A stretch of 64,000 bases of DNA from Echinicola arenosa (GTDB taxonomy: Bacteria; Bacteroidota; Bacteroidia; Cytophagales; Cyclobacteriaceae): assembly GCF_014841125.1 (NCBI RefSeq), contig NZ_JACYTQ010000007.1, positions 1 to 64,000 of the forward strand, written 5' to 3'. A program made the position numbers and the translations under genes. Below are positions 2,869 through 64,000 of this stretch, piece by piece. Positions within the stretch are counted from its first letter, which is position 1. Each line of letters starts with the position of its first letter. Under the pieces are notes generated by a model that was given only the letters and a program-made list of their open reading frames with translations, did no database searches and was not told the origin of the DNA.

Positions 2869-2929
2869 TTTGACAAAACTGTGATGGAAAAAATAAATCT
2901 ATGCAATAGGCCAATTAAAGGAAAATTTG

Positions 2930-7796: not shown

Positions 7797-7801
7797 AATA
7801 T

Positions 7802-8788: not shown

Positions 8789-8789
8789 T

Positions 8790-9776: not shown

Positions 9777-9784
9777 TGTATTCT

Positions 9785-14663: not shown

Positions 14664-14667
14664 ACCA

Positions 14668-38473: not shown

Positions 38474-39709
38474 ATGAAATCTACAATCAAAAATTGCTTT
38501 AAGAGTACGCTCTTAGCACTTACCACAGTGTCTTTAATTTCCTCTTGCCAATTGGATGAGTCTCAGAATATGGAAATTCAAGAAGAAGATAATGCAATAC
38601 ATGCGACTACTTTGCTTTCTAATTTGTTGTTTTCAGAAGATTTTGAAGGAAGCAATCCATTGAGAACAGTAAAAGTTCAAACTAGTACTGGCTATGGGTA
38701 CAAAGTAGTATCATCAAATCCGTTTCTTGGAAACAAAGCGGCTCGATTTGAATTAAGATCTGATGATGAACTTGCCTCTAATGGGACAAGGGCTGAAATG
38801 TTATTTGCAAGAGTACCTGAAGGAAGAGAAAAGTGGTATAGTTTTGCCGCCTACTTCCCATCAGAAGATTTTAAATATGATGCAGGTAATGAATGTATTA
38901 GTCAGTGGCATCAAGGAATGGGGAGCCCAGCACTTTCTTTGAGAATTGCAAAAGACAAATTCTATATTAGAACCCTTCCTACTGAAAAAGGAGACAATTG
39001 GAAGAACCTGTATTTTGGAAGCGTAATAAAAGATACATGGAATGAGTTTGTGATCCACGTCGTTCATGCGGAATCTTCTAAAGGATTGATAGAAATATGG
39101 AGAAATGGAGAGAAGGTCTTGACCTACAATGGACCAAATAATTATGATGAAGGGAAATTACCAACTTGGAAACTAGGAATCTATAAGTCTAAGTGGAATT
39201 CTGGGACTACTGATACAAGAAAAAGAGTGGTATATTATGACAATATAAAAATATCAGGTAAAGAAGGGAGTTTATCTCAAATGATATCTGATTTTAGCTT
39301 TGCACAATTGCCATCTCTTACTGGTGACTTCAATGATATCAGCCTTTCAGTTGTAAATGCGGAAGAAGAAACTATTTTTGGAAAACTGGATAAGGGGGGA
39401 ATTATCAGGTTTCATGATTTAGGAACAACAAAGCTTAATATAAAAGCCAATGTAGATTCCAAAATTGAAAGCGTTAGATTCAATTTATACCAAGAAAAGA
39501 AAAATGGAAGCTATGAGAAAATTTATTCGCATGTGGATATAAATGCTCCATTCGCACTATTTGATGATGATGGTAAAGGTAATTATTATTATGGAAGCCG
39601 GCAATTAGATTATGGAAAGTACAAGATTATTGTAACAACTTATATGGATACAAGAGAAACCATCCCTGTTGGAGATGTTTATACTTCCACATTTAAAATA
39701 TATAAATAA
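38474..39709 (+). CDS. Secreted polysaccharide-lyase-like lipoprotein
   Basis: The 411-residue protein has a lipoprotein signal, with the lipobox LISSC giving acylated Cys25, so it is probably surface- or periplasm-anchored. Residues about 50-265 resemble the heparin-lyase-I-like / PL20 polysaccharide lyase fold (LLFSEDFEGSNPL, RAEMLFARVPEGREKWYSFA, ISQWHQGMG, a jelly-roll closing with VVYYDNIKISG). The C-terminal 140 residues look like an Ig-type beta domain. It lies beside a uronate-forming dehydrogenase gene, so it may trim or release the locus polymer. Substrate unproven. Confidence 0.72.
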   Translation: MKSTIKNCFKSTLLALTTVSLISSCQLDESQNMEIQEEDNAIHATTLLSNLLFSEDFEGSNPLRTVKVQTSTGYGYKVVSSNPFLGNKAARFELRSDDELASNGTRAEMLFARVPEGREKWYSFAAYFPSEDFKYDAGNECISQWHQGMGSPALSLRIAKDKFYIRTLPTEKGDNWKNLYFGSVIKDTWNEFVIHVVHAESSKGLIEIWRNGEKVLTYNGPNNYDEGKLPTWKLGIYKSKWNSGTTDTRKRVVYYDNIKISGKEGSLSQMISDFSFAQLPSLTGDFNDISLSVVNAEEETIFGKLDKGGIIRFHDLGTTKLNIKANVDSKIESVRFNLYQEKKNGSYEKIYSHVDINAPFALFDDDGKGNYYYGSRQLDYGKYKIIVTTYMDTRETIPVGDVYTSTFKIYK

Positions 39710-39774: not shown

Positions 39775-41082
39775 TTACCAGCATAGCCCTATGTAATTAG
39801 GCATGGTTTCTAATTTAGGAATTCTCACCAAGTCTATTAAGCTTTCTTTTTGGGAAAGTTCTTCTAAGAAAGGGTCTGGATTGAAATTTTTGTGATTGAG
39901 CAGAATTACATCTGCTTCATTTATTGCCTTGGACGGGTCATCAGTGATCAAGTCAGATAAATGAGGCAAATGCTCTTCAATAAAAAGTTTGTTTGCTCCC
40001 ACTAGTTTTGAAATATGAACATTGCTGTCAAAAATTGTCAGTTGAAACCCTTTACCAATTAGTTTTTCGGCCATATCAACAGATGGGCTATACCGTAAAT
40101 CATCAGTACCTTCCTTAAACGAAAGTCCCATTAGGGCTATTTTTCTTTTCCCTGTTCTTTGGATTAGTTCAAATGCTAATCTTTTTTGAGTTTCATTAGA
40201 ATCATGAACTGCTCCTAAAACAGGAGTGGATAAATAGTGATCATGGGCCAATGTAACCATTCCTTTAAGGTCTTTAGGAAGGCAAGATCCTCCATAAGCG
40301 AAACCTGGCTTAAAGTATGCCGGAGAAATATTTAAATGTGTGTCTTTACAGAATATATCCATCACTTTGTGGGAATCTATATTGAGTGATTTACATATAT
40401 TCCCTACTTCATTGGCAAAGGAAATCTTTAAAGCATGGAATGAGTTGTTCACATATTTAATGATTTCAGCCACTTCTATATCAGTTTTTTCTATAGGCGC
40501 TGGAAGGTCTTGGTACAAGGAAGCTACAATTCCTAATGCCTTGTCATTGTCCCCTCCAATTACAGTAACTGCTGGATGATAATAATCTTTTACTGCTGAC
40601 CCCTCTCTCAGAAATTCTGGGTTTGAAACTACTGAGAAATCGACATTTCTTTTCTTTTCAGAGAATTTCTCAATAATTTCTCCAAGCTTTTTATTGGTGC
40701 CAGGCATCACAGTACTCCTTACCACCACCACATGAAAATCATCTTTTTCCTTAAGTGCTTCACCTATTTGTTCTGCTGTTTTATAAATATAGTTTAGGTT
40801 TAAATGACCTTGAGGAGAAGATGGGGTTCCTACACAGATAATACTTACGGACGTGTTTAATACCGCCTCCTGTGCACAAGTTGTGGCAGAAATTTTTCCT
40901 TTATCAAATTCTTCCTTAATGATTACGTCTATATCTTTTTCAATAATGGTTGGTTTACCTTTATTGATCAATTCTGCTTTTAAATCATTAATATCAACCC
41001 CAATGACGTTGTGGCCGTTTTTTGCAAGGCACCCCAAACTGACACACCCAACGTATCCAAGCCCAAAAATTGAAATGTTCAT
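39775..41082 (-). CDS. GDP-mannose 6-dehydrogenase-like sugar nucleotide dehydrogenase
   Basis: The 435-residue enzyme oxidises the C6 of a sugar nucleotide to a uronic acid with NAD+. It has the Rossmann start ISIFGLGYVGCVSLGCLAKN (3-22), VGTPSSPQGHLNLNYI, NPEFLREGSAVKD (154-166), and the catalytic Cys267 in FAYGGSCLPKDL. Overall it resembles AlgD (GDP-mannose dehydrogenase) more than UDP-glucose dehydrogenase, including LSFKEGTDDLRYSP and the C-terminal GLCW. It would supply GDP-mannuronate or a related uronate. Last gene of the minus-strand run, five bases after the DUF354 gene. Confidence 0.85.
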   Translation of the reverse strand: MNISIFGLGYVGCVSLGCLAKNGHNVIGVDINDLKAELINKGKPTIIEKDIDVIIKEEFDKGKISATTCAQEAVLNTSVSIICVGTPSSPQGHLNLNYIYKTAEQIGEALKEKDDFHVVVVRSTVMPGTNKKLGEIIEKFSEKKRNVDFSVVSNPEFLREGSAVKDYYHPAVTVIGGDNDKALGIVASLYQDLPAPIEKTDIEVAEIIKYVNNSFHALKISFANEVGNICKSLNIDSHKVMDIFCKDTHLNISPAYFKPGFAYGGSCLPKDLKGMVTLAHDHYLSTPVLGAVHDSNETQKRLAFELIQRTGKRKIALMGLSFKEGTDDLRYSPSVDMAEKLIGKGFQLTIFDSNVHISKLVGANKLFIEEHLPHLSDLITDDPSKAINEADVILLNHKNFNPDPFLEELSQKESLIDLVRIPKLETMPNYIGLCW

Positions 41083-41087
41083 AGTTG

Positions 41088-42107
41088 TTAGTTTTTATAT
41101 TTTAAAATTTGTTTTTCCATAAATAAGATCATGTCATCCCATTCTTTCAGTAATTTCTCCCTTGTTTGGGATTGTTGTTCCTTACTGAAACCGTTGGCAA
41201 CAAGTTGGTTGATTGGGGTTATTGCTCTTTTACTTGGTTCGTGCTTAAGTAAACCCTTTTCTGCTAAAAGTTTATTGGCCTTCATTTCCCTGATACCACA
41301 ATAGACACTAGGTACTCCTAGCATGGCTCCCTCTCTGGCCATGCTATCTCCTGATGAGATGATTAGTTTGGAATAATAGATTAATGAGTGTATGTCTTCT
41401 ATTGGTTCTTGAAGAATTGTCCAGTTATCCGGAAACTTATCTTTTATTGTTTTGTCCTCGAGTGATAATAGATAGGGGATTGAGTTGTCCAAGTCACCGG
41501 AAATACTACAGACAATGGCATCTTCTTGATCATAATAGTTGAACGACTTATTGCTTACTTCCCTGACAAATACATATTCGTAAGGTTTTATATCATAAGA
41601 TTTTAGTACTTCTGGATTGGGTTTAAAATAGGTTGGACTCAAGTAACTCCATTCCTTTAGACAATTAAAAACTTCCACCTTCTTGCTTTCTTCCACGATT
41701 GGTGGAAAGAATAGCTTGTTTGATAAGATTTCATTGATCTTATTGATTCCTTTTCTTTCAGGGTCATCATAAAACTGGACAATGGGCGTTCCTGATAACT
41801 TACAGGCCAAAGCAAGTGGAGCACTACTTGCGGCGGCACAAATATCAATTTTTTCCTTTTTAATTAACTTCAAAAAATCGGAAGTCCTTTTCACATTGCC
41901 CTGCCAGAAAATTGACCACTTTGTTCCCCTACTACTACCTATTTTATATTTGGTAAAACCAGGATATTCCTTGTCAATTATCTTGGGGAGCTTTCCTCTA
42001 TCCAAATAGCAAATTATCACTTTCCAGTTTTGCTCTTTTAGTTTGTTAGCAAGCCCCTTAAAAAGGTTTAACTGGGCAGGATGTTTGATGTCAATTAGAA
42101 TGTTCAT
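41088..42107 (-). CDS. DUF354-family protein, possible GT-B glycosyltransferase
   Basis: The 339-residue protein starts MNILIDIKHPAQLNLFKGLA, the DUF354 opening, and has the GT-B-like layout: a middle TPIVQFYDDPERKG and a C-terminal SSGDSMAREGAMLGVPSVYC that resembles the UDP-binding loop of MurG-like enzymes. Function is not established for the family. ATG 42107 is preferred to an upstream TTG at 42119. It lies between a GT2 gene and the sugar nucleotide dehydrogenase. Confidence 0.7.
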   Translation of the reverse strand: MNILIDIKHPAQLNLFKGLANKLKEQNWKVIICYLDRGKLPKIIDKEYPGFTKYKIGSSRGTKWSIFWQGNVKRTSDFLKLIKKEKIDICAAASSAPLALACKLSGTPIVQFYDDPERKGINKINEILSNKLFFPPIVEESKKVEVFNCLKEWSYLSPTYFKPNPEVLKSYDIKPYEYVFVREVSNKSFNYYDQEDAIVCSISGDLDNSIPYLLSLEDKTIKDKFPDNWTILQEPIEDIHSLIYYSKLIISSGDSMAREGAMLGVPSVYCGIREMKANKLLAEKGLLKHEPSKRAITPINQLVANGFSKEQQSQTREKLLKEWDDMILFMEKQILKYKN

Positions 42108-42301
42108 ATGGTTTGTCAAATGCTTCAGTGCAGTACTTTTGATAGAATCTTAAAATTTATAAAGATCTATTGTGCTACTTAAAAACCAATTAACTATGTT
42201 TTTTGGTTTTTATCTACAAAATCAAATAAGGTGTTAAATACAATTATGATTGTAAAATACATAAAAATAAGTTTAAAAAACAAAAAAATATATTTTAAAT
42301 A

Positions 42302-43288
42302 TTATTCAAAACTGTTTTTCTTTTTCCTTTCCACATATATTTTCATAAAAGGGGAAAGTATATAAAATAGAAAAAACCATTTTAAAGAATAATAGTTAAA
42401 TGATTTGGAAAGGAGAAACTTAGCGAGCTGTTTTCCATCTTTATACTCTTTTGTTTTGTATTTTCTCATACAAAGAGAGTAGAATTTTTTTGAAAGTCTC
42501 TTATTATATTGGATAAGTAATAAACCTTGGTCTTTATACTTTTCTATGTAGTCTTCTCTACCATTTAGAACTTGTTCATGACACTGGCAAGCAAATTCTG
42601 ATAGAAGTCTTTGTATAAGTATTTTATCTGTTTTTGTGCTTGCTCCATCCATGTGTAAAAATCTTTTGTAAAGAACTTCAGGAACTATATAAAAATCACA
42701 TACTCTACTCATTCTACACCATAAGTCTCTATCCTGAGCAAATCTGAATTGGGGTCTATATCCTCCTACTTTATCATAAAATTTTCTTCTGAACATTACT
42801 TCTCCATGGGTATAGGGGTTTTTATCTAAAATTGATTTCTCCATGGACCCATGAAATTTTTCTTGATTGATTTTTTTCTCACTTAATGGCTTTCCTTGCT
42901 TATCTAATCTCGTATTAAGGACGGTGCACCCCACTACACCTACCGTTTCGAATTGAAGGAAAGGAATGATTTGTTTGTCTATTCTGTCAGCTGTGGAAAT
43001 ATCTCCAGACCCATGGACCGCCACAAACTCTCCTTTAGATAACTTAATGGCATTAATCATTCCCTTCACAAAGCCTATATTGCTTTCATGTTTTATAAGT
43101 TTTATTCTAGGACTTGATAATTCCATTTTTTTTAATTCTTCATAAGTTCCATCTGTTGAGCAATCATCAAAAATGATTATTTCAATATTGGGATAGGTTT
43201 GATTGATCAAGCTTTCAATAGATGATGTTACATGATTTTTCCTATTGTAGAAGCCTGTTATAATACTTACAAGTGGTTGTTCGGACAT
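42302..43288 (-). CDS. Family 2 glycosyltransferase
   Basis: A 328-residue GT2 protein: VSIITGFYNRKNHVTSSIES (6-25), IFDDCSTDGT (39-48). In place of the usual LDSDD it reads AVHGSGDIST, so the metal site is altered but keeps one Asp. FRFAQDRDLWCRMS near 180-193 supplies the ED-type motif. A C-terminal aromatic-hydrophobic stretch precedes a basic tail. A gap of about 190 bases separates it from the DUF354 gene. Confidence 0.8.
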   Translation of the reverse strand: MSEQPLVSIITGFYNRKNHVTSSIESLINQTYPNIEIIIFDDCSTDGTYEELKKMELSSPRIKLIKHESNIGFVKGMINAIKLSKGEFVAVHGSGDISTADRIDKQIIPFLQFETVGVVGCTVLNTRLDKQGKPLSEKKINQEKFHGSMEKSILDKNPYTHGEVMFRRKFYDKVGGYRPQFRFAQDRDLWCRMSRVCDFYIVPEVLYKRFLHMDGASTKTDKILIQRLLSEFACQCHEQVLNGREDYIEKYKDQGLLLIQYNKRLSKKFYSLCMRKYKTKEYKDGKQLAKFLLSKSFNYYSLKWFFLFYILSPFMKIYVERKKKNSFE

Positions 43289-43475: not shown

Positions 43476-44333
43476 CTAGATTACTCGTTGCTCGATTTCC
43501 AAGTCTATACCAAACTTTTCTCTCACGTTAATTTTAATTTGATCAATTAATTGAAGTATATCATTACCTGTGGCTTCACTATGGTTAATTATAAAACCAC
43601 CATGTTTTTGGGAAACCTGAGCCCCACCAATTGTTAAGCCTTTTAGACCAAGCTCATCTATCATTGTCCCAACATAAAAGCCCTTAGGCCTTTTAAACAC
43701 ACTCCCTCCATTGGGAAACTCCCTAGGTTGTTTTAACCATCTCGCTTCTTTAGTCCGTTCCATTTTTTCCTTGATCTGGATTGGATCACTTTTTCTAAGT
43801 TTTAACCAGGTCTTGAGAACAATTTTGTTTTTGTTTTTTTGGAAAAAACTGTTTCGATATTCAAAGTTGATTTCCTCTTTAAGAATTTCTTTGACCTTCA
43901 TGTCATCGAGATCCAAGTACCTGACCTTAACAAGTATATCTTTTATTTCTTCTCCGCTGGCTCCAGCATTCATAACCACCGCTCCTCCTAAAGAACTTGG
44001 TATGTCATAGAATATTTCTAAACCAGTAAGTGAATGAGTTAAAGCAAGTTCACTTAAAAACTTCATGCTTACACCGCTTTCTCCAATTACGATGTCCTGT
44101 TCAACAGATGTTTGGGCAAAAGTCTCGCCCATGATAATAAACGTTTGATCGTAGAAAGGTTTTGATAAAATAATATTATATCCACCTCCAATAATTACCA
44201 AATCATCTATTGGTGTTTCTTTAAATATTTTGATTAAATCGGTTTCATTTTCCGGAAAAATAGCTTTCTTACAAATAGCATTAATTTTATAACTATTGAA
44301 GTCTTTAAGATTTAAGTTGTCATGTATTTTCAT
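43476..44333 (-). CDS. murB: MurB-like UDP-N-acetylenolpyruvoylglucosamine reductase, EPS-locus paralogue
   Basis: The 285-residue FAD enzyme is type II MurB (Bacillus/Staphylococcus-like). It has the FAD loop IIGGGYNIILS (46-56), IPSSLGGAVVMNAGASGEEI (110-129), the catalytic Arg in FEYRNSFF and the catalytic Ser in NGGSVFKRP; the terminal LEIEQRVI supplies the late Glu. It reduces the enolpyruvyl product of MurA to a lactyl ether. A different, type I MurB is at 63110, so this copy is probably not the cell-wall enzyme. It is separated from the murA paralogue by a flippase gene. Confidence 0.85.
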   Translation of the reverse strand: MKIHDNLNLKDFNSYKINAICKKAIFPENETDLIKIFKETPIDDLVIIGGGYNIILSKPFYDQTFIIMGETFAQTSVEQDIVIGESGVSMKFLSELALTHSLTGLEIFYDIPSSLGGAVVMNAGASGEEIKDILVKVRYLDLDDMKVKEILKEEINFEYRNSFFQKNKNKIVLKTWLKLRKSDPIQIKEKMERTKEARWLKQPREFPNGGSVFKRPKGFYVGTMIDELGLKGLTIGGAQVSQKHGGFIINHSEATGNDILQLIDQIKINVREKFGIDLEIEQRVI

Positions 44334-44386
44334 AAGACTTATTGGATAGATGAGTGAACAATTTTCCCTTAATTATTATTGACAAA

Positions 44387-45685
44387 TCAGGTACTTTTGA
44401 AAACCTTATTTTTTATACTTTCTATAAATGTAAAATCCTCTTTTTTGTAGCGAATAATCTCTTTAATTGGGATTTTACATAATTTTGAATAAATAAATAG
44501 AAACAAAATGGCAGCAAAAGTATAGCTGACTGTTGAAGCAAAAGCAGCTCCTTTTGCTCCATAAGTAGGAATAAGTAAAATATTTAAGATTACATTTATG
44601 ATTAGAGCAGGAACCATGGCTTTAAGAGAAATCCAAGGTTTGCCCTTACCTGCTAAATCCATATTGAGTACTTTAAAAATAGTAAGTAATAATACTCCAG
44701 GGATTAAGATCACCAATACTTCAGCGCTTGGTGCAAAACTTTTGCCATAAAGCAAGTTGATGATGGTTGAAGCATTGAGCACTAGTATTATGGACGCTAG
44801 ACCTATTATCAGGCAAGAAACCCTTAGCAATTGCGCTACTTTGAGGGAAAACTTTTTACCATCTTTGGCTGTGGCACTTCTGGCAAAGATTATAGTGCTA
44901 AGTAACATTGGGATATGCCATAAATATTCTACTAAAGACTGTCCTTTGCTATAAATCCCAGTTTCAAAATCTGATGACATTTTATCCAATATTACTACAT
45001 CTATTTTGTAGTTCAAATTTATAACCAGAAGTGCAATGGCATAGACTGAACCTAAGGACAACATTGATTTCAATATCTTCCAATCAAAATCAAATAACTT
45101 TACACCTTTGAAGTCTGCAGTTTTTAATAAAACTACGGACATTACCAATGGACCAATAATAGCTGACATCATGGCTCCATCTATTGACATTTTTAATGCT
45201 ATCACAAATAGAATTGTTGCGAGCATGGTAATGAATTTAGGAAGCCAATTAACCTTATTGAATTTAACTATTTCATTTTTTCCCAAAAATAGTCCAGAGA
45301 TGTATGTGGTTAATAGATTAAATGGAATGGGAGCAATTGCTAGCAATACTAGAAAGTTGTTTTCTGAAGATTTCGAGAAGTACTTAATCAGTAAATAGGA
45401 AGAAATTAGACAGAAAATAGTACTAAGCCACCAAAGTTGTATGATGGAAGATTGTATTTTTTTCTCGTCGTAGATTTTTTGGCCTACATAATATGCAGTG
45501 GATTGTCTTATGCCCAAGGAACCTATGGTCATGAATATAGATGGGTATACAGCAAGGGCAGCAATGGTTCCGTTAAGCTCTGGACCTAACCATCTTGCAA
45601 TCACGATGGTCCTAACCAGAGAAAACGTAATTACTCCGCCCTTGCTTAAAGCTACACTAGCGAGATCTTTTATGAAACTTGCCAT
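44387..45685 (-). CDS. Wzx-type flippase (second copy)
   Basis: The 432-residue membrane protein belongs to the polysaccharide export/MATE-like flippases. It has about twelve helices and begins MASFIKDLASVALSKGGVIT. It would flip a lipid-linked repeat unit outward. It lies between the MurA- and MurB-like genes, and its ATG overlaps the murA paralogue stop by 16 bases, so the three form a block. The locus also has a Wzx-like protein at 53763; the two are only distantly related. Confidence 0.82.
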   Translation of the reverse strand: MASFIKDLASVALSKGGVITFSLVRTIVIARWLGPELNGTIAALAVYPSIFMTIGSLGIRQSTAYYVGQKIYDEKKIQSSIIQLWWLSTIFCLISSYLLIKYFSKSSENNFLVLLAIAPIPFNLLTTYISGLFLGKNEIVKFNKVNWLPKFITMLATILFVIALKMSIDGAMMSAIIGPLVMSVVLLKTADFKGVKLFDFDWKILKSMLSLGSVYAIALLVINLNYKIDVVILDKMSSDFETGIYSKGQSLVEYLWHIPMLLSTIIFARSATAKDGKKFSLKVAQLLRVSCLIIGLASIILVLNASTIINLLYGKSFAPSAEVLVILIPGVLLLTIFKVLNMDLAGKGKPWISLKAMVPALIINVILNILLIPTYGAKGAAFASTVSYTFAAILFLFIYSKLCKIPIKEIIRYKKEDFTFIESIKNKVFKST

Positions 45686-46983
45686 TCTGTTTCTTCTTCC
45701 TCAATTAAAATCTTAACACCTAAGTGTTCTAGTTTGTCTTTTAATTTATTATAGCCTCTTAATGCCATTTCCACATTGTATATTTCAGATGTGCCCTCTG
45801 CCAAAAGAGCAGCAATGACAACAGCCATGCTACCTCTTAAATCTGTGGAATATGCTGAGCAGCTAGATGGCCGGAAACCTTTGCTTCCAAAAGTTGTAAT
45901 AGAGCCTTTTTCCCAATTAATTTTTTCAGGATAAAACTTAATAAGTTCTTCGCAATATTTGAGGCGTTCAGGATATCTATAATCAAAGATTCTACTGATA
46001 CCATCTGCATGCAAGCCTAGTAGGGTATAGAAAGGTTGCATGTCAGAGATAATACCTGGGTGTGTACCAGACGCTAATTCAAATGGCTGAAGCGTACCAT
46101 TAACCAAACATTCTGGAGATACCCTGACATTGGTTGAGTTTCTATAAAAGTCTATGCCAGCTTCTTTCAAATGAATTAATGGAATTTCCATTGAAGAAAA
46201 GGGAACATCTTCGATTAAAACATCTCCACCTGATAATATCCCATAAACGATCCATGTAAGCGCTTCGATTCGGTCAGGCATTACTTGAAAAATTGATCCT
46301 TTCAACTCCGATTGGCCTATTACTCGAATAAAACTATTACCGACTACTTCAATCTTAGAACCAATAGATCTAAGAAAATCAATTAAGCATTCGATTTCAG
46401 GAGATATATAAGCGTTTTTAATAGTTGTTTCTCCTGCGATAGTGGATGCAGAAATCAGCGCATTTTCTGTCCCACCAATAGTGGAAATTGGAAAATTAAT
46501 TTCTCCAGCTTTGAAACCTGATGGCGCAATAACTTCAATGTAATCAGGCCTTTCGATGATTTGAGCTCCGAGTTTTTCCCAAACCATTAAGTGCAAATCG
46601 TAGCCTCTATTCCCAATTTTACATCCCCCCGGATAGGGTATCTTTGCATTTCCAGACTTTTTTATCAAACCTGGTACAAGAAGATAAGTTGTACGTATTG
46701 GATAATTATAACTATCCAATATAGAAGATACTAATTTGTCAGAATCTATGGTCAAAGCTTCATTTATTTTATCAATTTTTACTTCTCCTCCATTTTTTCG
46801 TATGAAATCAATTTTATAATTAGCGTCAACTAATTCCGTAGGAAAATTTTCTAGTTTTACTTGACCATCTGAAATTAGGGCTGCGGCTAAAAGTCGTGTA
46901 GCAGCATTTTTAGCACCACTAACTTTTACTCTTCCATGTGGAATTTGGCCGCCAGTAATTTTTGCGGTTACATTTTTTCTCAT
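45670..46983 (-). CDS. murA: MurA-like UDP-GlcNAc 1-carboxyvinyltransferase, EPS-locus paralogue
   Basis: The 437-residue protein has the two-domain EPSP-synthase fold of MurA, which adds enolpyruvate from PEP to UDP-GlcNAc. Active-site residues are kept: KN of SGAKNAA (Lys25, Asn26), the PEP-binding Cys121 in PYPGGCKIGNRG, the Asp in ISDMQ (standard form PTDMQ), and the late Arg in DLRGSMAVV. Cys121 would make it fosfomycin-sensitive. It is about 18 residues longer than E. coli MurA. Location between glycosyltransferases, flippase and a MurB paralogue points to sugar-nucleotide supply for the exopolysaccharide. Whether another murA exists elsewhere cannot be seen here. Confidence 0.85.
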   Translation of the reverse strand: MRKNVTAKITGGQIPHGRVKVSGAKNAATRLLAAALISDGQVKLENFPTELVDANYKIDFIRKNGGEVKIDKINEALTIDSDKLVSSILDSYNYPIRTTYLLVPGLIKKSGNAKIPYPGGCKIGNRGYDLHLMVWEKLGAQIIERPDYIEVIAPSGFKAGEINFPISTIGGTENALISASTIAGETTIKNAYISPEIECLIDFLRSIGSKIEVVGNSFIRVIGQSELKGSIFQVMPDRIEALTWIVYGILSGGDVLIEDVPFSSMEIPLIHLKEAGIDFYRNSTNVRVSPECLVNGTLQPFELASGTHPGIISDMQPFYTLLGLHADGISRIFDYRYPERLKYCEELIKFYPEKINWEKGSITTFGSKGFRPSSCSAYSTDLRGSMAVVIAALLAEGTSEIYNVEMALRGYNKLKDKLEHLGVKILIEEEETEWQVS

Positions 46984-50465: not shown

Positions 50466-52121
50466 CTAGAGGTTAAAAAAATGTGATTCATAGATTTTGT
50501 GCTCGTTCCAGAGTTTCAATAAATAATTGTCATTTTCCCTTATCTGAAGTTTTAGATCTTTATCCAAAGAATAAGTTTCATTAACGTGGTTTGCAATGCA
50601 AATTATAAAATCGACTAGTAAAGTGAAACTTTCCTTGGAGTGTAAGGAAAATAACAAAATGTCTTCATTTCTAATAATGTCTTTTCCTTCTTCCCTCTCA
50701 CCGGATTTTGTATTTGCAGGAACATACCAAAGGACTGCAGCTAGTTTACCTTTATCTATCAAGGTGAATGATTCATGTCCTAGCTCCATTCTTTTCATGC
50801 TATCCCATAGAAAATCTTTTCTAGTTATGGATGATTTTTTTGGATCGAAGAGAAAGAAATCCTCAAGTTTGTTTGGCCGGATGGGTTTACAAGGGATTTC
50901 TAGCGGTAGTTCATTGATCTTGATGTTATAAAAGACATTTTTTTCAGGTCTTTTGGATGGATCAATAATATCTGTTGTCACTTCAAAGTCATCTTCAGAC
51001 TGAAAGGTATGTTTTGCCTTTTCCTTTTTGTTTTCTAATTCCAGAAAGAAAGCTTTTCTTTTTTGTGTATTAATATTGTTCTTCTTTAGAATTATTTTTA
51101 AATGCCTTGCGAAGTATCCTCTTATTTCTAATTTCTTTTTGGTCCATTCAGAGCATATTGTGAGTTCATGAGTTTCTAGAAAAGCATTGGCTAGCATTCC
51201 TTTGTAGCCATCAGCTCCGCCAGGGGTTAAGTCGAAAATTTCCGTTTCCTCTCGGCATACCAGTTTTCCTAGCATGAAAAAATGAAGTATTCCTGGAGAA
51301 TATTTGGCATAGCTAGGAGAGTGCGTATTTATGCCCTGTAGATGAACTACTTTGCTACTCATAAAGCCTACATTTGAGGCAATGATCTCTTTGTCTAGTC
51401 TTAATATTGTTACATGAAGAATCCCTTTTTTAAATGCATCGATTATAAATTGTTTTCTATTGGGTTCATTTTGAAAAGTGAGTTTGTCGAACATGGCTCC
51501 TTTTCTAAAGTCGCTTTGAATGATGAGTTCATCCAATATAGACTTAAAATCCTCAATCGAAGTTATCCGTTCAAAGGTTAATTCTCCTTTACGCTTAAGT
51601 CGGTTAATTTTTTCTTTTTTGTTCTTTTTTTTGAGTTCCTTGTCAATTTTTTCTTCATCTCCAATCATAATAGGTTGGAGGTGCTTTTTTAAAAATGTTT
51701 TGTTTTTCCAAGATTTTTTATTTTGACACCATGCTAGTGGAGTATGCGCTGGAACATATTTTAACTTTATAGTATAGTTGGGGAATTCTTTGGTTACTCT
51801 ATCAAGTGCCTTTGTTATAAACAGATCATTAGACTCGATAGTACTTAACCAAGTTTGATATTCAGCTTGCGTAATTCCAGGTACTCTTAATACTTTTTCA
51901 TCAATGGTAAGTAAGAAAAGACCAGACATATGGTTCCCATCCCAGTCGGTCAGGATGATTGGACGGTAATCATCGAGGTAATTTTCAAACCATGATAAAA
52001 CAAAATCTTTGCTTTGAAAAATGGTAGCCCAAGGACAAGCCGAATAGAGTTTATCCCAAGCTTTTAGGAAATCTTCTTGTGCTAATAAAGTGAAAGCTTC
52101 TTTATTTTTAATTAATTTCAT
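50466..52121 (-). CDS. GNAT/FemAB-like acyltransferase (CelD/BcsL type), copy 1
   Basis: The 551-residue protein has a FemAB/CelD-type (Acetyltransf_6-like) core: an N-terminal FLKAWDKLYSACPWATIFQS and a central region where IIASNVGFMSSKVVHLQGIN leads to PGILHFFMLGKLVCREETEI and FDLTPGGADGYKGML. A C-terminal extension of about 150 residues (from about 400) has no recognisable domain but is also present in the neighbouring paralogue at 52176. It may acylate a free amino sugar, which would fit the adjacent deacetylase; inference. Confidence 0.72.
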   Translation of the reverse strand: MKLIKNKEAFTLLAQEDFLKAWDKLYSACPWATIFQSKDFVLSWFENYLDDYRPIILTDWDGNHMSGLFLLTIDEKVLRVPGITQAEYQTWLSTIESNDLFITKALDRVTKEFPNYTIKLKYVPAHTPLAWCQNKKSWKNKTFLKKHLQPIMIGDEEKIDKELKKKNKKEKINRLKRKGELTFERITSIEDFKSILDELIIQSDFRKGAMFDKLTFQNEPNRKQFIIDAFKKGILHVTILRLDKEIIASNVGFMSSKVVHLQGINTHSPSYAKYSPGILHFFMLGKLVCREETEIFDLTPGGADGYKGMLANAFLETHELTICSEWTKKKLEIRGYFARHLKIILKKNNINTQKRKAFFLELENKKEKAKHTFQSEDDFEVTTDIIDPSKRPEKNVFYNIKINELPLEIPCKPIRPNKLEDFFLFDPKKSSITRKDFLWDSMKRMELGHESFTLIDKGKLAAVLWYVPANTKSGEREEGKDIIRNEDILLFSLHSKESFTLLVDFIICIANHVNETYSLDKDLKLQIRENDNYLLKLWNEHKIYESHFFNL

Positions 52122-52175
52122 TTTGATCTGTTCAATTTGATTTGGAAAAAAATATGCTAAATGAAAGCAGTGAAT

Positions 52176-53708
52176 CTATTTATTAATTATTACCTCGATA
52201 TGGGAAATGATTTGATCTTTAAAAGGCTCTATTGATGGATGAAAGTAGGTGCTTAGTATTTTGGGTTTTTCCACATCTTCACTTGGAGCCTCAAACCAAA
52301 CACAAGCTTCCAATAGATCATTTGAAGATATAGTGTAAAAATGATGGCCTTCTTCAATATAAGAAGCTGCTTTTTGAAGATATTCCCATTTAGTAAAATC
52401 AGAATTTTTATCAGAAAAGCAAAGTAGAGCAGCTAGGCTATTTTTCGAGAATTCATGATTTTCTAATAAAAAATCATTATGCTGATCTGCCTTATGTAAG
52501 GAAATATTTATTGAGTTTATTAGCTTAATAGGCTTGTTTTTTAACATGTATTTCATACGCTTTATCTTAAGTTTAAAGCTCATTGGCCTGATATTAAACT
52601 TAAGAAGGGAAGTATGTAATAGTTTTCTGATACTCTTCTTTAATTTGAATGATGGGTTTTTGCTAATAGTTAATTCTATCACTTCATCACTGCTAGTAGA
52701 GATGCGCTCCTTGTATGCATCATAGCCAGGTGTTAAATCAAAGACGTTAAAGCCTTGGTCTTTCATAAGCTGCCCCAATAGGAAAAAATGAACCAAGGCC
52801 GGGGAATGTTTGGCATAAAATGGTGAGTAGGAAATCAATCCTGCCAAATGAACCCATTTTTTATCTTTCATACCAATAATGGAACTTATAATTTCGTTTT
52901 CCAAAATTAACACTGATACATGGAGTAGATCTTTTTCAAAGAGAGATTTAAGAAAGAGAGGTTTATTGGGCTCTTTTTTGGAAGGTAATTTATTAAACAT
53001 ATAAGCCTGTCTAAAATCCAAAAACACCAAAACTTCTTTTAAAACACCATCGAATTCTTTAGAATCTGTTATTTCTTTAAGCTCAATCTTTCCTACTCTA
53101 CTGATTCGATTATATTTAGCTTTTAGATGCCTTTTTTTAAATAGTTTTTGTTCATCGGTTAGACTAAAGTCCATTAAGGGTCTATGATTTGCTAATGGAA
53201 CCGCATGGTTATTCCATTCTTTTGATTCTGTTATTACATTTACAATAGTAGAATCCGGAATAAACCGAAGAAACAAATTACTCTTTGGAAATTCTTCAAA
53301 CAATATTTTTAAAGCACTGGATATAAAGTAGTCACTATCCTCCCTTTTTGAAATCCAGACTTGATATTCTGCATCGTATGCCCCAGCTCCTATAATCCTT
53401 AGTGGAAATTGTTTTTCAATGCCTTTCTTCTTCTTTTTGGTAGCAAGACACAGCAGACCTAGTAGTTTGTCATCTTGTATTAAGAATACAATGATTGGGG
53501 AATATTCATTTGCATTGACTTGATACCAAGTAAGTATAAATTCCTTCTTTTGAAATACTGTAGCCCACTCACAGTCTTCATATAGTTTGTCCCACTTTTC
53601 TTGGAAGATGTTGTCATTCAAAAGTGAACAAGCGTTATCTTGGATGTAAACTTGAGGTTGGTGTTCAATGCTGGTCTTATTACTAAAAATATAACTTAAC
53701 ATTTTCAT
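52176..53708 (-). CDS. GNAT/FemAB-like acyltransferase (CelD/BcsL type), copy 2
   Basis: The 510-residue paralogue of 50466-52121 keeps the same blocks: WDKLYEDCEWATVFQKKEFI, EIISSIIGMKDKKWVHLAGL, SPALVHFFLLGQLMKDQGF and NVFDLTPGYDAYKERIS, plus the C-terminal extension ending in a LEACVWFEAPSEDVEKPK-type strand. The first 40 residues are unique. Two copies suggest two acylation sites or two acyl donors. No membrane segment, cytoplasmic. Confidence 0.72.
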   Translation of the reverse strand: MKMLSYIFSNKTSIEHQPQVYIQDNACSLLNDNIFQEKWDKLYEDCEWATVFQKKEFILTWYQVNANEYSPIIVFLIQDDKLLGLLCLATKKKKKGIEKQFPLRIIGAGAYDAEYQVWISKREDSDYFISSALKILFEEFPKSNLFLRFIPDSTIVNVITESKEWNNHAVPLANHRPLMDFSLTDEQKLFKKRHLKAKYNRISRVGKIELKEITDSKEFDGVLKEVLVFLDFRQAYMFNKLPSKKEPNKPLFLKSLFEKDLLHVSVLILENEIISSIIGMKDKKWVHLAGLISYSPFYAKHSPALVHFFLLGQLMKDQGFNVFDLTPGYDAYKERISTSSDEVIELTISKNPSFKLKKSIRKLLHTSLLKFNIRPMSFKLKIKRMKYMLKNKPIKLINSINISLHKADQHNDFLLENHEFSKNSLAALLCFSDKNSDFTKWEYLQKAASYIEEGHHFYTISSNDLLEACVWFEAPSEDVEKPKILSTYFHPSIEPFKDQIISHIEVIINK

Positions 53709-59103: not shown

Positions 59104-61521
59104 CTATACTGCTGCTCTACCACTTCCTTTGAATACTTTGTCTAGAACATTGGACTTTTTGTCGTCAGAATAATAGCCATATCCATATCCTCCGTAGTTC
59201 AGGCTCTTCGTACTTACATCATTGAATACTGCATAAATATTTTTCAGTCCTTTGCTTTCGCGTAAAAAGTTAATGTCTTCAATAAAGGAAAACTTACTGT
59301 AATTATACCTTAGAACACAAAGGGTCAAGTCTACCTGTCTTAGTATGGAGAGTGTTTCACTTGTCAAGCCAAGTGGAGGTGTGTCTAAAACAATAACGTC
59401 ATAGCTTTTCTTCAATTCGAGCAACATTTCTTCAAATCTAGGCTTTACTAGAAGTTCGGCAGGATTGGGAGGAGTGGGCCCAGCCAAAACCACATCTAAG
59501 TTAGGGAATGATGTTTTCTGAATGACTGCATCGATATTATCCACTTGATTACTGAGATAGGTAGATAAGCCTAAGTTGTTAGTTAGTTTGAAATCATCAA
59601 ATATTTTAGGCTTGTGAAGGTCACAACCTATCAGTATCGTTTTTTTATCACTTATTGAATAGGCCGAAGCAAGGTTCATTGATGTAAATGTCTTTCCTTC
59701 ACCTGCAATTGTTGAAGAGATTGCAATGGTAAGGTGCTTATCTTTAGGGACAATGAAGGTGATATTTGTTCGCAAAGCTCTAAATGCTTCAGCTATACCT
59801 GATTTGTTTCTATTAAACACTACAAGGCTTTTATCGGTTTTATTGTGACCAATTGATGTCAGTAATGGTGCTGTCAACTTTTTCTCCAGCTCTTTTCGGT
59901 CTTTAATTCTTACGTTAGTGAAAATTATAATCGAGATAATGATAATTGGAATTAAAAAGCCAAGTGCAGTTGCGAGAATATAGTTTGTTAATGGTTTCAA
60001 TTTAAGTGGAACAAAAATTGGAACAGCATTCTCAATTATTTTATCAGGAGCAGAATTAGATACCATGGCTATGGCAGACTCTGCTCTTCTTTGCATTAGA
60101 AAAGTATAGATGTTCTCGTTGAGCGTGAATGATCTTTGGATTCTTAATAGGTTCTGCTCAGTTACAGGAAGTCGGCTAAACTCGGACTCGGTTTTTGCTA
60201 GTCTTCGCTCGAGATCAGAAACTGTCATTTCTGAATTTTTGTTGACATTTCTGAGAACCTCTTTAATAGATTCGTTTAGATCAGATATTTTTTTGGTAAC
60301 AGCAATTACGCTGGGAGAAGAATTAGATTGTGTAGTCAAATATTGAGACCTTTCGGACTGCAAAAGAATCAGGTCCTCTATTAATCGGTTTAGTATAGGG
60401 TCTTCAATTCCGATACCAGAAGGTAAAATAATGTTATCATAACTTTCTCTCACGAGATAATCTTGAAGTTGCTCATAATACTGCTTTTTGAATCTTTCTT
60501 GGGAAAGCACAGTCTCAAGTTCAGTGATTTTAGTAAAGATTGTATTACCTTCACTTCCTATATTATAGGTCCTATTGTTACTTCTGAACCTTTCTAATTT
60601 ATTCTCAATAAAAGATAGAGAGTCAGATACACCGGAAATTTGATTGTCAATGAAGTCTACGGTTTTACTGGCTTGAAGATTTTTCTCTTTTAGTCCATTG
60701 TCGAGGAACGTAGCCATTAATTCATTGATATATCTCCTGCCTTTTTCTGGAACTGTAGTTACTAATTCTATACTTAATATAGAGCTTAGGGCATTTACTT
60801 GGGCTACAGTATAATTGTCACCAACATATTGATTTACTAAACTTGTCCGATCTCTGAACTGTACCAAATAATCCCCGGACTCGGTTTGAGGAACAGAAAC
60901 TTTAAATCGGGCAAAAGGTAGTTCTACCCATTGATCAAAACTGAAGCTTTTCGGACCAAATCCAGGGTGTTCATAAAGGAGCGAGCGTGATTTATCTGGA
61001 TTGAACTTTTTGTACTCGCCTTCAGGAAAGTTTACAGAAAAGGATTTATTGTTATTCCAAGATATCTCAAAATCACTTTCAGTTAATTGTGTATGCTCCC
61101 AATCTACTACCACTTGGAGAGCAGATTCTTCATATACCTCCTTGTTTTGAAAAGTACCTAGTTCATAGTATTCAACGTCAAAATCCAGCTTATCCAGAAC
61201 TTCATTAGCCAACGGTCTTGATTTTAAGATATTTATCTGGTTGAAAATCCTGTTGGATAAGGGAATACCACTTACAGGAACATTTCCAGTTAAGTCAAGT
61301 ACATTACCACTGGTCTCTGCTTCAATCATTAACCTTCCCTCAACTTTGTACTCTGAAGGGTTGGTTAGGTTATAGAAATATGCTCCAGTTACTGCAAGGA
61401 GGACAGAAGCAACGATATAGGGCCAGAATTTGAGGTATTTTCCCAAAAATTCTTTTATGTCGAGGTTGTTTGAATTATCCTCGGTGTAATATTCAAACTC
61501 GGTATTGTTGTTCATGTTCAT
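59104..61521 (-). CDS. wzc: Wzc-like polysaccharide co-polymerase and tyrosine kinase
   Basis: The 805-residue inner-membrane protein controls chain length and export. An N-terminal Wzz domain has helices near residues 32-50 and 510-530, with a coiled-coil periplasmic part. The cytoplasmic bacterial tyrosine kinase has Walker A AISSTIAGEGKTFTSMNLA (near 595-613), Walker A' ILIGCDLHKPKI (near 627-638) and Walker B VIVLDTPPL. The C-terminus has the usual Tyr-rich tail (GGYGYGYYSDD) for autophosphorylation. It pairs with Wza five bases upstream. Confidence 0.93.
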   Translation of the reverse strand: MNMNNNTEFEYYTEDNSNNLDIKEFLGKYLKFWPYIVASVLLAVTGAYFYNLTNPSEYKVEGRLMIEAETSGNVLDLTGNVPVSGIPLSNRIFNQINILKSRPLANEVLDKLDFDVEYYELGTFQNKEVYEESALQVVVDWEHTQLTESDFEISWNNNKSFSVNFPEGEYKKFNPDKSRSLLYEHPGFGPKSFSFDQWVELPFARFKVSVPQTESGDYLVQFRDRTSLVNQYVGDNYTVAQVNALSSILSIELVTTVPEKGRRYINELMATFLDNGLKEKNLQASKTVDFIDNQISGVSDSLSFIENKLERFRSNNRTYNIGSEGNTIFTKITELETVLSQERFKKQYYEQLQDYLVRESYDNIILPSGIGIEDPILNRLIEDLILLQSERSQYLTTQSNSSPSVIAVTKKISDLNESIKEVLRNVNKNSEMTVSDLERRLAKTESEFSRLPVTEQNLLRIQRSFTLNENIYTFLMQRRAESAIAMVSNSAPDKIIENAVPIFVPLKLKPLTNYILATALGFLIPIIIISIIIFTNVRIKDRKELEKKLTAPLLTSIGHNKTDKSLVVFNRNKSGIAEAFRALRTNITFIVPKDKHLTIAISSTIAGEGKTFTSMNLASAYSISDKKTILIGCDLHKPKIFDDFKLTNNLGLSTYLSNQVDNIDAVIQKTSFPNLDVVLAGPTPPNPAELLVKPRFEEMLLELKKSYDVIVLDTPPLGLTSETLSILRQVDLTLCVLRYNYSKFSFIEDINFLRESKGLKNIYAVFNDVSTKSLNYGGYGYGYYSDDKKSNVLDKVFKGSGRAAV

Positions 61522-61526
61522 TGCTT

Positions 61527-62348
61527 TTAGTTGTTATTGGTGGCATTATAGATCAAAACTCCTAATGTAAGTGTGGTGACCAAGAGCTGGAAAGTCTGTA
61601 TAAAAGTAGCTCCTGTTCCTAATTCTCTGACTTTCATAGGTTCTACATAGATAAGGTCATTGGGCCTTAGGAAGTAAAAATCAGATTCCATTATTCTATC
61701 ATCCAAAAGGTCAATTTTATATACCTTGGATCCCTCAGGATATTGTCTAATTAATGTGACTTTATCCCTATTAGCTACTATTGTCATTTCTCCTGCATTT
61801 GCAATAGCCTCAAATATTGTTACTCTATTCTGTAAAATTGTATATTTTCCAGGTCGGTTGAATTCACCCAAAGCACTGTACCTTATCCCCCCAAGTCGCA
61901 CTCGAACGAATGAATCTGCGGTTTCATTTAGGTATTTAACAACTTCATTTTCTACCAATGTTTTGGCTTCGGAAGTAGTTAGCCCCAATAAGTTCAATTC
62001 TCCTAAAACGGGAAGTTCAATTAAACCATCATCATCTAGTGTGTAACCAGTCATAAAATAGATGTCGCCTCCATCAGCTAGACCGCGCATTGCATTACTA
62101 CTATTTGCAGCAGCGGGATCATTAAATAGAAGGTTTAACTCGGGGCTTGTGGTTCTGATGTTAATATCTATTACGTCGTTTGCTTGTAATTTATATTCTT
62201 CGATTTGGTGAACTTTCATGCCACTTGAACTTGCTACCATTTCTTCAGACTTCTGCTCTTGCATGTAGATTAGTCTTTTATTAGAAATACAGCTAAAAGA
62301 GAGCATACAGGTGATGCAGAAAACAATGTAAATTCTTAAGTGTTTCAT
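61527..62348 (-). CDS. wza: Wza-like outer-membrane polysaccharide export lipoprotein
   Basis: The 273-residue protein is the outer-membrane polysaccharide export (OPX) component. The lipoprotein signal ends at lipobox LSFSC (Cys20). It then has the poly-export domain (LQANDVIDINIRTTSPELNL) and one or two SLBB-type domains (SALGEFNRPGKYTILQNRVT). The C-terminal LLVTTLTLGVLIYNATNNN is a hydrophobic helix in the place of the Wza pore-forming segment; the protein is short, typical of Bacteroidota OPX proteins. First gene of the minus-strand run. Confidence 0.9.
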   Translation of the reverse strand: MKHLRIYIVFCITCMLSFSCISNKRLIYMQEQKSEEMVASSSGMKVHQIEEYKLQANDVIDINIRTTSPELNLLFNDPAAANSSNAMRGLADGGDIYFMTGYTLDDDGLIELPVLGELNLLGLTTSEAKTLVENEVVKYLNETADSFVRVRLGGIRYSALGEFNRPGKYTILQNRVTIFEAIANAGEMTIVANRDKVTLIRQYPEGSKVYKIDLLDDRIMESDFYFLRPNDLIYVEPMKVRELGTGATFIQTFQLLVTTLTLGVLIYNATNNN

Positions 62349-62630: not shown

Positions 62631-63113
62631 ATGATAAGACCGGATTTTGACGATATTTTTATGGAATTGGCAGTGAATCTGGCAAAAAGATCACATTGTA
62701 TTAAAAAGCATGTTGGGGCTGTATTGACTAAAGACACTAGAATAATTTCAATTGGTTATAATGGCCCTCCTCCTGGCACGCATAATTGTGATGAAGAATT
62801 TCCTGAAACTGGATGCAGCAGAGATAGCAAAGGGAGTTGTTCTTTGGCCTTGCATGCAGAGCAGAATGCTATATTATACGCTGTTAAAAACAACGCCTCC
62901 GTGGAAGGTTCTACACTATATGTGACTTTAGCGCCTTGCCTGGCATGCGCCAGGATTATTTATTCGATGGGAGTAGCTAAGGTTATTTATATGTATTCCT
63001 ATGCAGAATACAAGGGACTTCCTTTTGATGAAGGTGTGGAGTTTTTGAAAAAGTTTGGTGTGTTGGTAGACAAGTATGAGAAGGAAATTACTTTTGAAGA
63101 TGTATTGATCTAA
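62631..63113 (+). CDS. dCMP deaminase-like zinc enzyme (ComEB type)
   Basis: The 160-residue protein deaminates dCMP (or a related cytidine) to feed dTMP synthesis. The zinc site is HAEQNA (catalytic His and Glu, near residue 76) and PCLACA (two Cys, near 104-109). The insert CDEEFPETGCSRDSKGSC has extra cysteines and is typical of dCMP deaminases, which bind a second zinc or effector there. Its stop overlaps the murB stop by four bases, tail to tail, without room for a terminator. Confidence 0.88.
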   Translation: MIRPDFDDIFMELAVNLAKRSHCIKKHVGAVLTKDTRIISIGYNGPPPGTHNCDEEFPETGCSRDSKGSCSLALHAEQNAILYAVKNNASVEGSTLYVTLAPCLACARIIYSMGVAKVIYMYSYAEYKGLPFDEGVEFLKKFGVLVDKYEKEITFEDVLI

Positions 63114-64000
63114 ATGAAGTTTACTTCAGGGTGTAATAATATGTTAAACTTCTTTTCTACATCCGTTTGTATTTTCTCTGAAAGTGCTTTAATCGCCTCT
63201 CCATCTCCATCTCCATAATTAACTAGAACTAATGGCTGGTTTTTATGCACTCCTATAGATCCGAAAGTACGTCCTTTCCAACCTGCTTGCTCAATAAGCC
63301 AGGCTGCAGGAACTTTTACTTCTTTTGACTGCGGATATCCAGGAATAGTTGGATGTAAAGCTTTTAACTTTTCAAAATGTTCAAGACTCACCACCGGGTT
63401 CTTGAAAAAACTTCCTGCATTGCCGATCAGTTTTGGATCTGGCAACTTGCTTTGTCGGATAGATATGATCGCTTTACTGATATCGTCGATGGTAATCCCA
63501 ACTTCCGAAATACCCATTTCCTGAAGAGTTGTCTTTATAGCTCCGTAAGTAATATTTGGAGATGGGTGTTTTGAAAGTCTGTATGTGACATGTGTGATCA
63601 CATATTTATCACGAACAGTATTTTTAAAAATACTTTCTCTGTACCCAAAATTGCATTGATCATGATTGAATATTTCGACTTCCAAGGTTTCCCGATTGAC
63701 AGCTTCAAGGTGATCAAAAACTTCTTTTATTTCTACTCCATAAGCACCAATGTTTTGCATGGGTGAAGCTCCAACGGTACCTGGGATCAAAGATAAGTTT
63801 TCTATTCCGGCCCAGTTTTGATTAATGGCATATTGGACGAAGTCGTGCCATATTTCGCCCGCACCAACTTTTACCCATATATTATTTTGATTCTCTTTTT
63901 GAACAGTAATGCCTGTAATATTCATTTTTATGACCATAGCATAAATATCCTTGGTAAGAAGGATGTTGCTGCCTCCACCTAAAATAAATACTGGAATTTT
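63110..64000 (-). CDS. murB: UDP-N-acetylenolpyruvoylglucosamine reductase MurB (type I), partial
   Basis: The frame runs in from beyond the window end: codons from 64000 down encode KIPVFILGGGSNILLTKD, the FAD-binding loop, so the N-terminus is missing. It continues with LSLIPGTVGASPMQNIGAYG, the YRES Arg, the catalytic Ser in GNAGSFFKNP, and the C-terminal LHPEVNFI with the conserved Glu. This is type I (E. coli-like) MurB, unlike the type II copy at 43476. It is most likely the cell-wall enzyme. About 297 codons are visible. Confidence 0.92.
   Translation of the reverse strand, partial: KIPVFILGGGSNILLTKDIYAMVIKMNITGITVQKENQNNIWVKVGAGEIWHDFVQYAINQNWAGIENLSLIPGTVGASPMQNIGAYGVEIKEVFDHLEAVNRETLEVEIFNHDQCNFGYRESIFKNTVRDKYVITHVTYRLSKHPSPNITYGAIKTTLQEMGISEVGITIDDISKAIISIRQSKLPDPKLIGNAGSFFKNPVVSLEHFEKLKALHPTIPGYPQSKEVKVPAAWLIEQAGWKGRTFGSIGVHKNQPLVLVNYGDGDGEAIKALSEKIQTDVEKKFNILLHPEVNFI

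Follow-up and report, generated by a model that had tools for sequence, protein, structure and literature searches.

Paired MurA- and MurB-like genes with a flippase gene in polysaccharide loci: a probable module for a lactyl-ether nucleotide sugar

In a 64,000-nucleotide stretch of the Echinicola arenosa genome (assembly GCF_014841125.1, contig NZ_JACYTQ010000007.1, positions 1 to 64,000, forward strand; hereafter the window), three adjacent genes encode a MurA-like enolpyruvyl transferase, a Wzx/MATE-type flippase and a type II MurB-like flavin adenine dinucleotide (FAD) reductase. We consider it highly probable that these genes form the core of a transferable module that makes a lactyl-ether uridine diphosphate (UDP)-sugar for an exported polysaccharide. 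What the sequences establish is that the two enzymes are extra copies, that they fall in separate clades, that catalytic residues are kept, that the linkage recurs, and that the sugar pocket of the MurA is changed. The class of chemistry follows from the enzyme families, and from there we infer what kind of substrate is used, what the reduction yields and that this product goes into a polymer. A lactyl-ether sugar is the best reading because the paralogues are extra, group with homologues from polysaccharide loci and keep the residues for enolpyruvyl transfer and reduction.

In the proposed route, the MurA-like enzyme would move the enolpyruvyl group of phosphoenolpyruvate (PEP) onto a hydroxyl of a UDP-sugar, and the MurB-like flavoenzyme would reduce the enolpyruvyl product to a lactyl ether. 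The acidic sugar so formed would be added by a neighbouring glycosyltransferase to a lipid-linked repeat unit. Once the linked flippase had turned this unit over the membrane, the polymer would be polymerised and exported through the Wzy/Wzc/Wza system.

The murA, flippase and murB open reading frames (ORFs) are intact and all on the minus strand, and their coordinates (Table 1) agree with the 16-base overlap between murA and the flippase gene that a first-pass annotation of the window had noted. Their Pfam matches were EPSP_synthase (153.9 bits), Polysacc_synt_3 (45.4 bits, cut-off 23) and MurB_C (112 bits), respectively. The same annotation had reported Cys121 and other active-site residues in the MurA, and a catalytic Arg and Ser in the type II MurB. 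These were found, with Cys121 and ten catalytic or PEP-site positions present in the former, and R160 and S211, as well as E281, in the latter. The AlphaFold2 model of the window MurA (pLDDT 90.2) had MurAs as its best Foldseek matches (TM-score about 0.87), and its predicted structure is that of a two-domain enolpyruvyl transferase of the MurA fold.

The first-pass reading depended on a second murA elsewhere in the genome. Indeed, the source genome, which spans 5.39 Mb in 20 contigs and is rated 100% complete, contains one further MurA, on a different contig from the module (C17:85758-87041). It also has a third PF00275 gene, not scanned by name and presumably aroA, and one further MurB, namely the distinct type I gene that had been noted at the right edge of the window. 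When 98 genomes were searched with the window MurA, a second MurA was found in five (G000, G002, G038, G041 and G044). Those of G002, G038, G041 and G044 were 36-40% identical to the window MurA, and ordinary MurAs 25-31% (33% for one fragment); G018 gave no match in this search. Among 29 relatives, MurB occupied one place in 27 (as two adjoining pieces in G012) and two in G000 and G002. The Flavihumibacter metagenome-assembled genome (MAG) that holds locus L072 (G402) had a single MurB, of the module type; a housekeeping MurB may have been replaced or may be absent from the assembly.

Both enzymes grouped with homologues from polysaccharide loci elsewhere, the grouping that the first-pass annotation had proposed to check. 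The MurA tree held 35 module sequences, 26 housekeeping sequences of the order, 22 from Bacillota, one from Desulfofustis and one from E. coli. In it the 35 module MurAs formed one clade (100/99), separate from all the other sequences; the MurA of locus L051, a fragment of 240 amino acids (aa), was kept out of the tree and the residue counts. In a quick tree built from 75 of 122 rows, the 37 module MurBs formed one clade (SH-aLRT 100) on the type II side. The housekeeping MurBs of these hosts belong to type I, so the module MurB did not arise by recent duplication of the host gene. Within the MurA tree carriers from different orders group together, for example Chryseobacterium and Sphingobacterium (100/99), or Moheibacter and Sphingobacterium alkalisoli (98/94). 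This pattern suggests that the module is mobile and has spread horizontally.

We then considered how widely the module occurs. With the module MurB as query, 84,980 species genomes were scanned, the counts being lower bounds, and at least 33 loci were obtained at 48-62% identity, followed by a gap; the other 47 loci among the matches listed were in Bacillota records, at no more than 43% identity to the module MurB. Thirty-one of the 33 were named Bacteroidota, and the others were L063 (a Desulfofustis isolate) and L051 (a MAG named Gallicola). The latter locus lies on a small contig and could be misassigned. With the window, G038, G002, G041 and G445 added, 38 distinct genomes carried the module MurB, and 36 of them were Bacteroidota; L060 was dropped as the same locus as L038, and L043 (G451) and L053 (G421) were each counted once. 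A module MurA was present in 37 of the 38, and in 36 it lay within one to four genes of murB. In G041, murA and a GT2 gene were on one contig and murB and the flippase gene on another. The only genome of the 38 without a module MurA was that of Desulfofustis glycolicus, whose gene (L063:1720-2574) encodes a module-type MurB at 52% identity. Such recurrence of the murA-murB pair across many genera ruled out a chance neighbourhood. In samples of the same family and of the phylum, where up to eight first-look candidates per genome were scored, the module was carried by 12 of 295 and 1 of 296 genomes, respectively (E 1e-70 or better). Flanks were examined for eight of the 12 family carriers, those of G473, G484, G537 and G587 not being taken from that sample. 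Plasmid-borne members were sought as well, and the seven plasmid records had MurBs at 33-36% identity that do not belong to the module family. Among the matches, those of Burkholderia cenocepacia plasmids (hits H2-H4) were type II MurBs at 34% identity, with a carbamoyltransferase-domain gene under the match.

The catalytic and PEP-site positions of MurA, which we take to be K22, N23, R91, C115, R120, D305, R331, D369, R371 and R397 (E. coli numbering throughout), were present in 35/35 module MurAs. Likewise, R160, S211 and E281 were present in 37/37 module MurBs, all of which had gaps at the type I positions Y190 and Y254; the MurB of L063 was among these 37, though left out of the list of module-specific MurB residues. 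On the sugar side of MurA the picture was different. Residue 327 was Arg in 35/35 module MurAs and Val, Ile or Met in 50/50 comparison sequences (26 and 23 rows, plus E. coli); the location of Arg336 of the window MurA is judged from the alignment. Further changes were E329 to Pro (35/35), T304 to Ser, E325 to Asp and D159 mostly to Pro, and the loops 159-163 and 302-304 were altered. Taking the pocket for UDP-N-acetylglucosamine (UDP-GlcNAc) to consist of the UniProt positions, 11 of 30 module-specific MurA positions lay within three residues of it (10% expected, P = 4e-5). This list is partly backed by a docking paper, which names R91, R120, K160, V163, D305 and V327 among the MurA pocket residues (PMC11628175). 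The MurA equivalog TIGR01072 (cut-off 392.7 bits) was missed by all three module MurAs scanned (305.6, 309.8 and 383.0 bits) and passed by both housekeeping MurAs scanned (441.6 bits for that of the source genome, 612.1 for that of E. coli).

Module MurAs were also bimodal. Identity between two subfamilies, I (that of the window) and II, was 0.34-0.41 (0.37), and within them 0.55-0.99 for I and 0.59-0.86 for II (0.69 and 0.72), as compared over 13 rows of I, including the window, and 21 rows of II, with L040 left out. In the same comparison the partners were not split, the values being 0.58 and 0.60 within and 0.56 between for MurB, and 0.51 and 0.53 within and 0.50 between for Wzx. Of the 45 MurA positions that separate the subfamilies, one has no E. 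coli residue and was excluded, and 12 of the remaining 44 were near the UDP-GlcNAc pocket (P = 4e-4). Neighbouring proteins were clustered at 30% identity and 60% coverage, at which distant kin would be missed, on contigs cut at 10 kb flanks (34 kb for the window). A hexapeptide acetyltransferase (CysE/EpsC-like) directly followed murA in 17/22 subfamily II loci and 0/14 subfamily I loci (Fisher P = 3e-6).

That the locus has its own flippase, as the first-pass annotation held, was borne out by the recurrence of a flippase as module partner. The window Wzx family was found in 4/14 subfamily I and 20/23 subfamily II loci. An ATP-binding cassette (ABC) transporter cluster took its place in 8/14 subfamily I loci (the one member scanned, from L068, is HepA/MsbA/PglK-like); the rest of subfamily I comprised one locus with another Wzx and L073, with an unassigned 510-aa protein at the place of the flippase. 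Within subfamily II, L054 and L058 had another Wzx-type cluster (the L054 member was scanned), and L040 had no flippase nearby, its genome having one beside murB. A flippase is required in any Wzy-type locus, and finding one says little by itself; the informative part is its position beside murA and murB.

As to the acceptor, a UDP-sugar other than UDP-GlcNAc is somewhat more likely than UDP-GlcNAc, which would give N-acetylmuramic acid (MurNAc). Subfamilies I and II probably use different UDP-sugars, and there is about an even chance that at least one of them uses a sugar other than UDP-GlcNAc. Equally balanced, in our estimate, is the wider proposal that MurA-I and MurA-II are two new enolpyruvyl transferase families that would act on different UDP-sugars, share one pool of reductases and flippases, and yield previously unassigned lactyl-ether sugars for exported glycans. 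One such acceptor, at the level of a guess from the alignment, would be a UDP-hexuronic acid bound through the invariant Arg336. What makes a uronic acid attractive is this Arg, together with the nucleotide-sugar 6-dehydrogenase clusters (c7 or c13, one member of each scanned) in 14/36 loci on contigs cut at the flanks, with one more such gene on the murB contig of G041; the gene at 39775..41082 of the window is a possible source. It stays a guess since the 6-dehydrogenase is not universal among the loci and found no support as a constant partner.

The same module could act on the ordinary acceptor, turning UDP-GlcNAc-enolpyruvate into UDP-MurNAc for a polymer with plain MurNAc, in which case the extra copies would serve flux and regulation only. 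We regard this as a real, if rather doubtful, possibility. Muramic acid is known chemically in a capsule, that of Vibrio vulnificus, and R120, D123, L124 and H125 on the UDP side, as well as the PEP-contacting residues, are present in nearly all rows. The Arg at 327 and the Pro at 329 in 35/35 MurAs, the changed loops, the TIGR01072 result and the division of MurA, but not of the MurB/Wzx pool, into two discrete subfamilies argue against it, even though the cut-offs of NF006873 and of the MurB equivalog are passed. Of the muramic-acid-like sugar that the first-pass annotation proposed for the polymer, the lactyl ether holds as the best reading, and muramic acid itself is less certain, given an altered pocket and a missed TIGR01072. 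A reserve peptidoglycan route, for example under stress, would resemble the second MurA of many Bacillota, and in 8/9 Bacillota genomes searched at least two MurA-type matches exceeded 210 bits. Peptidoglycan could be supplied by the same reactions, but in nearly all loci seen the genes stand in a glycan locus, next to genes for flippases and glycosyltransferases. They are also patchy in the family and phylum samples given above, and their MurAs have an altered pocket and branch apart from the 22 Bacillota MurAs, a group with several copies from the same genome. We therefore rejected this route on location, patchiness and tree, and hold it to be very unlikely; close kinship with Bacillota MurA2/MurZ was rejected as well, the module clade being separate (100/99) in a tree that carries a long-branch warning. 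We give least credence to a non-sugar acceptor and a small secreted compound as the product of the locus. NikO, which acts on UMP, does show that the MurA fold can be diverted (PMC6801904), and it is a structural neighbour of the window MurA; at 96 bits, however, it scored below all 32 distinct MurA sequences matched, so that it is not the closest solved relative, and the loci encode glycosyltransferases and flippases along with export proteins.

Several observations weigh against a lactyl-ether sugar for an exported polymer, or against parts of that proposal. No polymer structure for any carrier species was found in the literature search, and the chemistry is read from sequence. Ordinary UDP-GlcNAc chemistry gains from the passing of NF006873 (cut-off 297) by the module MurAs (318.8, 323.9 and 397.1 bits), and indeed by all five MurAs scanned, and of TIGR00179 by the module MurB (214.9 versus 144.5 bits; PRK13905 was missed by one bit, 258 versus 259), and from the nearness of one module MurA (383.0 bits) to the TIGR01072 gate. 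The pocket test treats positions as independent and uses a list backed only in part by the docking paper. Prevalence is low, at 1/296 in the phylum sample and 12/295 in the family. The acetyltransferase that marks most of subfamily II is lacking in L213, seen later and outside the Fisher test, with which the count becomes 17/23. Finally, the MurA tree program warned of long branches meeting and of bootstrap values that had not settled, and a subfamily II MurA (L037) was 35-41% identical to matched Bacillota MurAs, about as near as to subfamily I. It is therefore not sure that subfamilies I and II share one origin; the Arg at 327, the Pro at 329 and other module-specific residues common to both speak for it.

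Housekeeping MurA and MurB share with the module enzymes the fold, the PEP and catalytic residues and the FAD reductase residues. They differ in clade, and the module has a pocket changed at and near 327, lies in glycan export loci, and comes in addition to the housekeeping pair, with a type II MurB as opposed to the host's own type I. The expected product belongs to the same class as the lactyl-ether sugars of O-antigens, capsules and marine exopolysaccharides (EPS), whose cited producers are not Bacteroidota: 4-O-lactyl GlcNAc in Proteus vulgaris O15, according to a reference title, and, as reported, lactate groups in deepsane, a marine EPS, and R-lactic acid in Pseudoalteromonas (PMC5852497, PMC3210612). 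NikO of nikkomycin synthesis likewise has a MurA fold diverted to another acceptor and is more distant in sequence than the MurAs, the comparison being one of sequence and fold rather than gene context; the paper that covers MurA, NikO and ketal pyruvylation does not use the term MurB in its main text (PMC6801904). Ketal-pyruvyl transferases of EPS (PF04230) also put a PEP-derived acidic group on an exported glycan, but they are of another family and form a ketal rather than an ether linkage. A literature search limited to titles and the starts of abstracts, in lists of at most 10-30 papers and with most subscription journals outside its scope, gave among the papers listed no MurA/MurB-like pair tied to a lactyl-ether sugar and no description of this gene layout. 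Given that scope, this is weak evidence that the system is new.

Table 1. Module genes and other features of the window
Feature	Position	Strand	Details
MurA-like enolpyruvyl transferase, module subfamily I	45670..46983	-	437 aa; Cys121, Arg336
Wzx/MATE-type module flippase	44387..45685	-	432 aa; ten transmembrane-like stretches (hydropathy)
Type II MurB-like FAD reductase of module	43476..44333	-	285 aa; R160/S211/E281 present
GT2 glycosyltransferase adjoining murB	42302..43288	-	cluster c3
DUF354 protein, accessory	41088..42119	-	beside module
Nucleotide-sugar 6-dehydrogenase, accessory	39775..41082	-	
Wza-type export protein, surrounding polysaccharide locus	61527..62348	-	Poly_export, SLBB
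Wzc-type chain-length protein, surrounding locus	59104..61521	-	GNVR, AAA_31; Wzz below cut-off
Housekeeping type I MurB, outside module	63110..63937	-	cut by window edge
Ketal-pyruvyl transferase (PF04230)	55388-56602		same polysaccharide locus
Second flippase of locus	53763-55319		

Upstream of murA lie two GT4-type paralogues, and downstream of murB the GT2 glycosyltransferase, the DUF354 protein and the nucleotide-sugar dehydrogenase. Farther upstream are a deacetylase, two PF13480 proteins, the second flippase, the ketal-pyruvyl transferase, another GT2, and the Wzc- and Wza-type proteins. The setting among glycosyltransferases in a Wza/Wzc/Wzy locus, as first annotated, was thus recovered for the glycosyltransferases and the Wza- and Wzc-type proteins, and for Wzy there is a candidate, a multi-transmembrane protein in the upstream part without a family match. 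A Pfam scan of the 20 locus proteins (36-64 kb) found no Mur ligase. Because the two flippases differ, two polymers or an inserted module may be present. The PF13480 (GNAT/FemAB-like) paralogues are large (551 and 510 aa; 50466-53708). Beside the locus, on the opposite strand, a secreted-looking PF14099 polysaccharide lyase (38474-39709) could cut the polymer of the locus, and 13 same-strand ORFs at 2927-15798, several of them glycosyltransferase-like when compared with fetched loci, are probably another polysaccharide locus.

Among the neighbours in other genomes, glycosyltransferases of cluster c3 or c5 are found repeatedly close to murB. By contrast, a core role was not supported for the deacetylase and the two PF13480 proteins, which the first-pass annotation had taken for possible modifiers of the amino group and which clustered with nothing outside the window at the threshold used; cluster c19, in four loci, has a weak deacetylase match below cut-off. 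In subfamily II, sulfate activation genes (CysN, CysD, APS kinase and CysQ) were seen in L038 (scanned), L058 and L061 (by clustering), and sulfotransferase-type genes in L037 and L045 (scanned), L048 and L058 (by clustering), which makes it probable that some of the polymers carry sulfate.

The two kinds of MurA also differ at the fosfomycin site. The position of Cys115 in housekeeping MurA was Asp in 26/26 genomes of the order, including the source genome, and also in the carriers G002, G038, G041 and G044, that is, 30/30 in total, with five carriers; the housekeeping MurA at L041:7747-9054 and those of 29 relatives make up this total. Module MurAs had Cys in 35/35. Asp at this site is reported to render E. 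coli MurA insensitive to fosfomycin (PMC4790336). The polymer step may thus be the only one that fosfomycin affects, and if so, this step may be blockable chemically without stopping growth.

Lactyl-ether sugars are known chemically in several bacterial surface polymers, and the module offers a concrete candidate gene pair for making them, which may let such polymers be predicted from genomes. It would also illustrate how the opening two steps of cell-wall synthesis can be duplicated and turned to another purpose.

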